Below the pieces are notes generated by a model. That model made no database searches. It worked only from the letters and a program-made list of their open reading frames with translations, and was not told the origin of the DNA. Below, piece after piece: positions 21,401 to 23,513 of a DNA stretch of 64,000 nucleotides. The DNA is taken from assembly GCF_009674685.1 (NCBI RefSeq), contig NZ_WKJI01000002.1, positions 558,001-622,000 on the forward strand, written 5' to 3'. Positions within the stretch are counted from its first letter, which is position 1, and each line of letters starts with the position of its first letter. A program made the translations under genes and the position numbers. This stretch comes from Pedobacter puniceum. Its GTDB lineage: Bacteria; Bacteroidota; Bacteroidia; Sphingobacteriales; Sphingobacteriaceae.

Positions 21401-21751
21401 AGAAGCGAAATAACCATAACGCTCTCCCCAAACTTTCCAGCAATTAGCCATACGATGTGCTACTTGCTTAATACTTTTTTCTGACCCCAAAGAGCCATCA
21501 GCTTGTGGTACACCTGCTTTTCTAAAATATTTTTGAGCTAAGATATCAGTTGCTACTTGAGACCAAGTATTTGGTACTTCAACATCATTCATTTCAAAAA
21601 CTGCGTCACCAGATGGATTTCTGATTACCGATGACCTTTTATCATATGTAAAAAGATCATAGACATCTTTTCCCTCGACTGTAAAGTAACGATCAAATTT
21701 CAACCCTTTTCCGGTAGGCGTAGCCGCCTTGTTTGATGATGATTTTCCCAT
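18434..21751 (-). CDS. nrdJ: Vitamin B12-dependent (class II) ribonucleotide reductase
   Basis: A 1105-residue enzyme reducing ribonucleotides with adenosylcobalamin as radical source, in the cytosol. The active-site motif NPCSE (about 393-397) supplies the Asn, thiyl-radical Cys and Glu, followed by [31 protein letters not shown] is the typical phosphate-binding loop region. The last 30 residues are a zinc-ribbon-like Cys cluster ([17 protein letters not shown], then CLNCG), usual for this long NrdJ type. It is a monocistronic gene with 331 nt of leader and terminator DNA before pyk. I see no B12 riboswitch in that leader; a pair of TTTTCCACA boxes is present instead. Confidence 0.96.
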
Positions 21752-21813: not shown

Positions 21814-21821
21814 CAAATTTA
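21814..21821 (-). promoter_or_regulatory. Candidate -7 box of nrdJ
   Basis: Read on the minus strand this is TAAATTTG, matching TAnnTTTG, about 63 nt before the nrdJ ATG. There is no clear TTTG upstream at the expected distance. Confidence 0.4.
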
Positions 21822-21849
21822 ATTTCTCCTAATAAATAATCGGTTTTGA

Positions 21850-21938
21850 GTTTTCCACAGCCAGATTTATAAATTTTACCTACGACTTTTTTTTGCAACA
21901 AAAACACTGATATCAAGATACTTAGCAGTGTGGAAAAC
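21850..21938. promoter_or_regulatory. Inverted pair of DnaA-box-like TTTTCCACA sites ahead of nrdJ
   Basis: GTTTTCCACA at 21850-21859 and its exact reverse complement TGTGGAAAAC at 21929-21938 are separated by 69 nt. Each differs by one base from the DnaA box TTATCCACA. They lie upstream of the candidate nrdJ promoter. The role as DnaA or other regulator sites is inference. Confidence 0.4.
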
Positions 21939-22034
21939 TAAAATTTTTCTTTTTTATATGACTTTTTCATAAAAATTGATTAGAGAAAAACATAAGTGTA
22001 CTTTATACATGATTCACGTCATATTTAAACAAAA

Positions 22035-22059
22035 AAACCCAGCTTTTTCGACTGGGTTT
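22035..22059 (-). terminator. Terminator of pyk
   Basis: An 8-bp stem, AAACCCAG (22035-22042) and CTGGGTTT (22052-22059), lies just past the pyk stop, with a T-run on the minus strand. Confidence 0.85.
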
Positions 22060-22082
22060 TTCTTTATATAAACTCTTATTTA

Positions 22083-23513
22083 TTAATCAATAACATTCAC
22101 TTTAATCATATTCGTTTTTCCTTTTTTCTCAATCGGGATAGATGCTGTGTTGATGATGATATCGCCAGACTCAATTAACTTCTCTGCTTTTAAGATTTTG
22201 TTAACCTCACTAATGGTGGTATCGGTACTATCAAACTTATCGTAATAGAAACCTCTTACTCCCCAAAGTAGACTTAGGGTGTTTAACAAATTACGGTTTG
22301 ACGTAAAAATATAAGTACCTGCTTTTGGTCTGTGACTAGAAATCTGGAAGGCAGTATAACCAGAAGATGTCATCGCAACAATACCTTCTGCATTGGTTTT
22401 ATCTGCTAAAAACACAGCAGAGCTACAAACTGCATCAGCCATATAAGTTGGGCAACTTTCGTCTAAATCTTTGTTTTTGTAATAAGGATAAGAAGTATTT
22501 TCAACATGGTTGATGATTTTACTCATCGTCTCGATAACGATTAATGGAAACTCGCCTACAGAGGTCTCACCACTCAACATTACTGCATCTGCACCATCTA
22601 AAACAGAGTTTGCAACATCATTCACCTCAGCTCTAGTTGGGCGAGGCGTAGTAATCATACTCTCTAACATCTGTGTAGCTACAATTACAGGTTTTGATGC
22701 TTTATTACATTTTTGAGCAATCATTTTCTGTAATACCGGAACTTCCTCCATAGGCATTTCAACACCTAAATCTCCACGAGCAACCATCACACCATCTGTA
22801 ACTTCAATAATAGCATCTATGTTATCAATAGCTTCTGGCTTCTCAATTTTAGCAATTACTCTAGAGCTTTTACCACTTCTACTAATAATACGCTTTAAAT
22901 CTATAATATCTTCTGCTTTTCTTACGAAAGATAAACCTATCCACTCTACATCATTTGCTAAAGCAAAATCAAGGTTTACCAAATCCTCTTCTGTTAAAGA
23001 AGGGATAGAAACTTTAGTGTTTGGAAGGTTTACACCTTTTCTGCTGGTTAGAATACCACCGTGTAAAACCTCACAAATAACAGTATCTTTTCTATTAGTT
23101 TCTACCACACGCATTTGCAGTTTACCATCATCTAATAAGATAATTTCTCCTGCTTTTACATCCTGAGGGAAGGTTTCATAAGTGATGTAAATTTGGTTAT
23201 CATCACCAATACACTCATTAGTAGTAATTTTTATTTGTGTACCGTTAATCAGGTTGATACCGCCATCTTTTACTAAGCCAATTCTAATTTTTGGACCTTG
23301 TAAATCTGCCAAGATACCAACATTGGTTTTGTATTTTTGATTGATTTCTCTGATGATATCAATCACTTTTTGGTGATCTTCTGCTTTACCATGAGAGAAA
23401 TTTAATCTACAAACATCAACACCGGCTTTAATTAATGATAATAAAACGTCTTTATTTGAAGTAGCCGGGCCTAAAGTTGCTACGATTTTGGTTCTTTTTT
23501 GAACAATTTTCAT
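22083..23513 (-). CDS. pyk: Pyruvate kinase
   Basis: A 476-residue glycolytic enzyme converting phosphoenolpyruvate and ADP to pyruvate and ATP. Seen: the N-terminal KRTKIVATLGPATSN, the substrate loop CRLNFSHG, the catalytic-site block VIAKIEKPEAIDNIDAI followed by VMVARGDLGVEMP, and KPVIVATQMLESM. The C-terminal regulatory domain is present. It follows the IPExxxVDY gene by 187 nt on the same strand and has its own well-formed promoter in that gap. Confidence 0.97.
   Translation of the reverse strand: MKIVQKRTKIVATLGPATSNKDVLLSLIKAGVDVCRLNFSHGKAEDHQKVIDIIREINQKYKTNVGILADLQGPKIRIGLVKDGGINLINGTQIKITTNECIGDDNQIYITYETFPQDVKAGEIILLDDGKLQMRVVETNRKDTVICEVLHGGILTSRKGVNLPNTKVSIPSLTEEDLVNLDFALANDVEWIGLSFVRKAEDIIDLKRIISRSGKSSRVIAKIEKPEAIDNIDAIIEVTDGVMVARGDLGVEMPMEEVPVLQKMIAQKCNKASKPVIVATQMLESMITTPRPTRAEVNDVANSVLDGADAVMLSGETSVGEFPLIVIETMSKIINHVENTSYPYYKNKDLDESCPTYMADAVCSSAVFLADKTNAEGIVAMTSSGYTAFQISSHRPKAGTYIFTSNRNLLNTLSLLWGVRGFYYDKFDSTDTTISEVNKILKAEKLIESGDIIINTASIPIEKKGKTNMIKVNVID

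Follow-up and report, generated by a model that had tools for sequence, protein, structure and literature searches.

Control of ribonucleotide reductase (RNR) by the replication initiator is best described for Escherichia coli, where DnaA activates or represses the nrdAB operon depending on its level and nucleotide state, according to the available part of a review on DnaA (PMC8203912). As in the element described here, DnaA-box 9-mers lie upstream of the RNR promoter, with TTATCCACA at -162 from the nrdA start. The two differ in that nrdAB is of class Ia and carries two direct-repeat boxes 3 bp apart, while nrdJ is of class II and carries single boxes that are inverted and 69 nt apart. According to the available part of PMC11317965, E. 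coli DnaA prefers boxes in direct repeat separated by 2-3 bp, and a double box of this type is not what is found at nrdJ. DnaA has also been proposed for RNR genes in Caulobacter and Bacillus subtilis, and in Caulobacter for ftsZ as well; these species belong to other phyla, and in the available part of the review no helically phased pair is described, nor are the words helical, spacing or looping used (PMC8203912).

The second system to be compared is the NrdR regulon, in which each RNR promoter likewise has two sites and sites occur at several RNR classes (available parts of PMC4009431 and PMC12176259). NrdR is encoded by nearly all known bacteria, as the available part of one review states (PMC4009431). 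A search with TIGR00244 found nrdR in 0/7 genomes of the family to which the nrdJ element belongs, with the control search positive in 9/14 named genomes, and an NrdR regulon was rejected on this basis. The nrdJ box also differs from the NrdR-box consensus. In literature on nrdJ and RNR, DnaA boxes, NrdR and Bacteroidetes, no such element appears in the titles or abstracts among the matches listed, a set that takes in few subscription papers.

The box pair and the nrdJ promoter

The first-pass annotation of the window (the whole 64,000-nt stretch of Pedobacter puniceum DNA analysed here) had pointed to a DnaA-box-like sequence and its exact complement upstream of nrdJ, and we confirm both sites, which read GTTTTCCACA and TGTGGAAAAC on the plus strand, together with the intervening 69 nt (Table 1). 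In the direction of nrdJ transcription the order is pyk, a terminator-like repeat, box 1, 69 nt, box 2, TAAATTTG and nrdJ. The pair had been placed in an AT-rich leader near a candidate promoter. Its position, probably 5' of the start of transcription, makes it a promoter element and not a piece of the leader.

Table 1. Features of the nrdJ control region, with positions in the window
Feature	Position	Strand	Remarks
nrdJ, class II (vitamin-B12-dependent) ribonucleotide reductase, 1105 aa	18434..21751	-	Pfam PF08471 and PF02867; start at 21751
Entire predicted control element (126 bp), from box 1 across the spacer and box 2 to TAAATTTG	21814..21939	-	
TAAATTTG, match to the TAnnTTTG -7 consensus	21814..21821	-	Equivalent position in relatives
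Box 2, promoter-proximal, inverted	21850..21859	+	GTTTTCCACA on the plus strand, TGTGGAAAAC in nrdJ sense; with flank in nrdJ sense TGTGGAAAACTC (21859-21848)
AT-rich spacer, 69 nt	21860..21928	.	Length constant and sequence diverging within the genus
Box 1, promoter-distal	21929..21938	-	GTTTTCCACA; DnaA-box-like (TTWTCCACA); conserved in relatives; with flank in nrdJ sense AGTTTTCCACA (from 21939)
Terminator-like inverted repeat with T run	22031..22061	-	3' of pyk, between pyk and the element; found by eye
pyk, pyruvate kinase, upstream neighbour	22083..23513	-	Pfam; other genes there in some relatives

In Bacteroidota promoters the -7 element reads TAnnTTTG. Box 2 has a fixed place 38-40 nt before it (38 nt from the first base of box 2, in nrdJ sense, to TAAATTTG in the window), which would bring the box close to the 5' side of the -33 position. 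Of 21 promoters examined, seven have a TTG 14-16 nt downstream of the start of box 2, and the nrdJ promoter of the window has none at the usual -33 place. Since most of these promoters have no TTG at -33, we propose that the protein bound at the adjoining site helps the polymerase; a weak -33 next to such a site suggests assistance of this kind.

Single boxes are not unusual in the window. There are three TTTTCCACA sites against 0.99 expected (at least three in 8/100 shuffles), and TTWTNCACA occurs at chance level, with 11 sites against 9.4 expected; the excess over chance lies in the inverted pair with its fixed spacing, not in the single 9-mers. Both window boxes read TTTTCCACA and thus match TTWTNCACA, the criterion for DnaA boxes. 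The boxes of relatives include TTATCCACA, and also TTTTCAACA or TTATCAACA, which are one position off TTWTNCACA. The genome-wide count of the 9-mer, which the first-pass annotation had named as a check, shows it to be rare, with 37 sites in 3.9 Mb compared to 141 for the reversed string.

Conservation in the genus and family

Conservation upstream of nrdJ in related genomes, the other check named there, is borne out, as the boxes are kept. The pattern TTTTCCACA-N45..75-TGTGGAAAA occurs at 11 places in 8/18 genomes of the genus, and its reversed control at none. At 10 of the 11 places the spacer is exactly 69 nt; the eleventh (62 nt, in G113) lies inside an open frame. Spacers of 76-106 nt between exact boxes are found in 0/18 genomes of the genus. 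A scan of 39 genomes for PF02867, of which the first 20 had been chosen as free of the pattern (true for 19, with one pattern match in G054), found a long NrdJ frame in four (G000, G108, G113 and G014), and the pair is present in all four; in G014 box 1 has a single mismatch and the spacer measures 68 nt. The nearest named nrdJ relatives among the matches listed belong to Mucilaginibacter and Pedobacter, at 87-88% identity.

Across the family, a looser box-pair pattern matches 159/201 genomes, compared to 34 for the reversed control, and many of these matches are not the nrdJ element. Among 30 family loci (L151-L180), 22 have the pair before nrdJ with a spacer of 68-69 nt and the start of TAnnTTTG 38-40 nt from the first base of box 2, and the remaining eight are non-nrdJ loci; as all 30 were fetched by the box pattern, they demonstrate the fixed geometry and not its frequency. 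From a DNA search with the whole leader, with 199/201 matches at E <= 1, the strong rows alone were used. Pairs at other spacings occur in the genera g20, g14, g5, g6 and g17. In g20 (L153-L157), a pair with a 53-54 nt spacer stands before a gene encoding MEEDFEFEF..., with a small gene on the other side. Two g21 loci among the 22 (L169 2003-2089 and L176 2849-2936) have a second pair further upstream of nrdJ, with spacers of 69 and 70 nt, resembling a tandem copy, and these second pairs have no exact TAnnTTTG.

The copies away from nrdJ raise the question whether the pair could be the remnant of a mobile element, or a site that titrates DnaA with no effect on nrdJ transcription. Copies of the same layout do stand upstream of a 225-aa orphan gene and of a 262-aa gene. 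On the other hand, the genes upstream of the element vary among relatives while the site before nrdJ stays, and the more distant copies have dissimilar spacer sequences. Furthermore, all four non-nrdJ copies examined in the genus are followed, at 38-39 nt, by a -7-like sequence, which reads TAAATTTG in three and GTCATTTG in one. A search against phage DNA gave no match. We regard a remnant or an inert titration site as highly improbable.

The 225-aa orphan family is preceded by element copies at G000:C1:853376 (L039), G108:C1:1032014 (L040) and G113:C3:156726 (L056); L039 has a degenerate second box, and that of L040 departs at one position. Of two such orphan proteins searched with Pfam, one gave a sub-cut-off match to HTH_11. 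The copy at G108:C1:899027-899113 (L041, L047) is an exact pair with a 69-nt spacer and TAAATTTG at 38 nt; it lies 3' of a long frame resembling the restriction protein HsdR and precedes the gene for a 262-aa protein that has no match in Pfam.

Spacing of the boxes and the nature of the site

The best 80 nrdJ loci of GTDB genomes, which were not selected by boxes, allow the spacing to be compared beyond the family. In 23 of them box 2 is anchored before TAnnTTTG, and 22 of these 23 have a box 1 at 15-102 nt, where 3.4 would be expected from Markov-resampled sequence. Going by their names and ranks, we counted 15 of the 80 loci with the family (L071-L083, L140 and L089); 14 of these are anchored, with spacers of 67-69 nt and, at one locus, a second candidate at 22 nt. 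The nine anchored loci outside the family have spacers of 36, 37, 37, 37, 37, 47, 48 and 49 nt, one being devoid of box 1 and one having a second candidate at 73 nt. Dropping the -7 anchor adds two loci at 58 nt, which make up the whole 58 class, and others at 59, 48 and 26 nt, as well as at 29, 31, 66, 83, 90, 108 and 120 nt. Phylum-wide, the strict pattern with spacers of 30-60 nt is found in 1/395 genomes (locus L304).

The layout recurs before a different RNR class. In the genus g17, eight genomes scanned have one PF02867 match each and none has a long NrdJ, and all eight have TTWTC(C/A)ACA - 79 nt - TGTGGAAAA before the class Ib operon nrdHIEF. The strict TAnnTTTG is absent there in 8/8; all eight have a relaxed nAnnTTTG (GATATTTG or GATCTTTG) at 39-40 nt downstream of box 2. 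Between them, two of the g17 genomes give Pfam support for NrdI, for the RNR large chain and, at the first gene, for a glutaredoxin-like protein. The large chains of class II and class Ib both match PF02867 and are distant relatives, and joint inheritance of their promoters is not expected. Other operons depart from this layout: five class Ib operons of g4 (L256-L260) have boxes upstream of nrdI/nrdE in another geometry, at 19 and/or 106 nt, and four of g16 have one or two boxes arranged otherwise, although the upstream sequence available is short at three of these. Upstream of class Ia nrdBA, the pair is found in 0/17 regions and a single box in eight.

Fitting a period to the spacer classes 37, 48, 58, 68.5 and 79, five values chosen by us with 79 taken from the class Ib operons, gives 10.45 bp with residuals up to 0.35. 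Measured against uniform spacing, with the phase set by the family, the non-family loci (73 included) give p ~4e-4, some of these loci being related to each other. For the non-family loci alone the Rayleigh R is 0.91 at a period of 11.5, higher than the 0.72 at 10.5, and the period of about 10.5 therefore rests on the class series. As the distances of box 1 step by about one helical turn, both boxes would face the same side of the DNA.

Could the boxes instead pair with each other as a 10-bp RNA stem in the 5' leader of nrdJ, as part of a riboswitch or attenuator? A 101-nt piece does fold with the box stem at z -2.3, matched by 4/200 shuffles, yet the fold of the 209-nt leader reaches only z -0.3, with 72/200 shuffles equal or better, and Rfam returned no match at the gathering score, only sub-threshold ones. 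At least one non-pair is present in 15/22 box pairs; seven are perfectly complementary, and four double changes preserve pairing. In addition, the -7 element lies downstream of both boxes. A structured RNA leader, a cobalamin riboswitch included, is thus disfavoured by the folds, Rfam and the pairing counts, and we consider an RNA element extremely improbable. The 10.45-bp series, together with the 15/22 pairs that are unable to pair fully, points to protein-bound sites in DNA. Comparison of these sequences suggests a conserved protein-bound switch that would tie replication to the supply of DNA precursors, and whose spacing appears to change by whole turns of the helix.

DnaA as the candidate binder

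We hypothesize that the two boxes serve as operators, recognised in double-stranded DNA immediately 5' of the nrdJ promoter, and that they are most likely DnaA boxes. DnaA, in its ATP or ADP form, would occupy both of them, with the short DNA in between either looped or covered by a DnaA oligomer, and DnaA at box 2 would adjoin the -33 contact of RNA polymerase. The bound protein may help the polymerase, and at high levels of ATP-DnaA it may act as a repressor, as described for E. coli nrdAB. The supply of dNTPs would then follow the state of the initiator, in a lineage in which the search for NrdR gave no match.

The first-pass annotation had raised control of nucleotide supply by DnaA as a possibility, and this is supported in part: conserved boxes, a rare 9-mer, boxes at replication genes and NrdR in 0/7 genomes speak for it, and the lack of a clear origin cluster and of boxes before dnaA in six genus genomes does not. 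The helix-turn-helix end of the DnaA of the window genome aligns with chain 8btg_A, and the protein matches chain 1j1v_A (E 6.9e-16), which we take to be domain IV of E. coli DnaA. The window genome has 79 exact TTWTCCACA sites, 52 coding and 27 intergenic by a simple open-frame rule. Intergenic sites precede gyrA, gyrB, ftsZ, pyrG and nrdJ, and also the genes for ribosomal protein L19, the glycine cleavage P-protein, a translation GTPase and an oxygenase, as well as unknown genes; grouping gyrA, gyrB, ftsZ and pyrG as replication-linked was done after the list had been seen. The sites of these four genes are kept in the close relative G108. In sister genera, pairs stand before dnaA itself in four g17 genomes (spacer 62-63 nt) and four g14 genomes (75 nt, plus further boxes), with DnaA confirmed by Pfam in three of the eight, and three boxes lie before dnaB in G168, where Pfam confirms DnaB; all these genomes were chosen because the box pattern matched them. 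The spacers of the pairs before dnaA do not fit the phase of the RNR series.

The first-pass annotation had also proposed a count of the boxes at the origin. Sampling of the GC skew in G108 places the switch between 3.0 and 3.2 Mb, and no clear cluster appears in 298 kb around it (2.90-3.198 Mb, counted at an approximate origin place and without shuffles); the densest spot, 300 bp at 3070919-3071215, contains a single exact box and three with one mismatch each. TTWTC(A/C)ACA is not found in the 500 bp upstream of dnaA in six of eight genus genomes; the other two, the complete genomes G108 and G103, have 0 and 105 bases of this region in view because their records start at dnaA. In G108 (L064, L212-L245) dnaA opens the record, away from the sampled skew switch, so that dnaA is probably not located at the origin in this genus.

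Several of these points would fit a different Bacteroidota transcription factor, so far unrecognised, that reads the DnaA-box-like 9-mer and controls RNR, gyrase and dnaA genes with the same geometry and looping: the wide, inverted and phased arrangement departs from the tight direct pairs that E. coli DnaA favours, the spacers upstream of dnaA are out of phase, and an origin cluster is not clear. Opposed to this, the motif resembles E. coli DnaA boxes as described in the available part of PMC11317965, also in the A/T variation at its third position and in the AG on its 5' side, each half-site is asymmetric, and the linked genes include dnaA, dnaB, gyrA, gyrB, ftsZ and pyrG. NrdR, the sole alternative factor looked for, was not found in the seven genomes searched. 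Such a factor appears unlikely to us, yet deserves serious consideration.

Weighing the lack of a clear origin cluster, the boxless dnaA upstream regions of the genus, the out-of-phase dnaA pairs and the tight direct pairs of E. coli, we assign DnaA a probable role and not a certain one. A putative, helically phased DnaA operator pair controlling the nrdJ promoter is accordingly what we favour with reasonable confidence from sequence comparison. More tentatively, and with the case nearly balanced but falling slightly short, such a pair might be the main RNR control in Bacteroidota devoid of NrdR, a module shared by class II and class Ib genes with a fixed place at the promoter and a loop that varies by whole turns. 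If true, this would put a name to the control of RNR genes where NrdR was not found. The finding predicts an easily tested coupling of dNTP supply to the replication initiator in Bacteroidota, and the natural spacer series of 37, 48, 58, 69 and 79 offers a test of how a putative DnaA complex depends on the face of the DNA.

Further arrangements of boxes were noted in the window genome. The ftsA-ftsZ gap (G000:C3:337636-337696; L202 1637-1696) contains four DnaA-like boxes, TTTTCAACA, TTTTCCACA, TTATCCACA and TATTCCACA, the first three of which are kept in G108 (L367). Upstream of pyrG, which encodes CTP synthase, two direct TTATCCACA boxes lie 125 bp apart (G000:C1:1089623 and 1089748; L363), and likewise in G108 (L366). 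Finally, an everted box pair (G000:C3:425957 and 426021; L203) occupies the divergent gap between the genes for a 230-aa protein and a 2OG-Fe(II) oxygenase.
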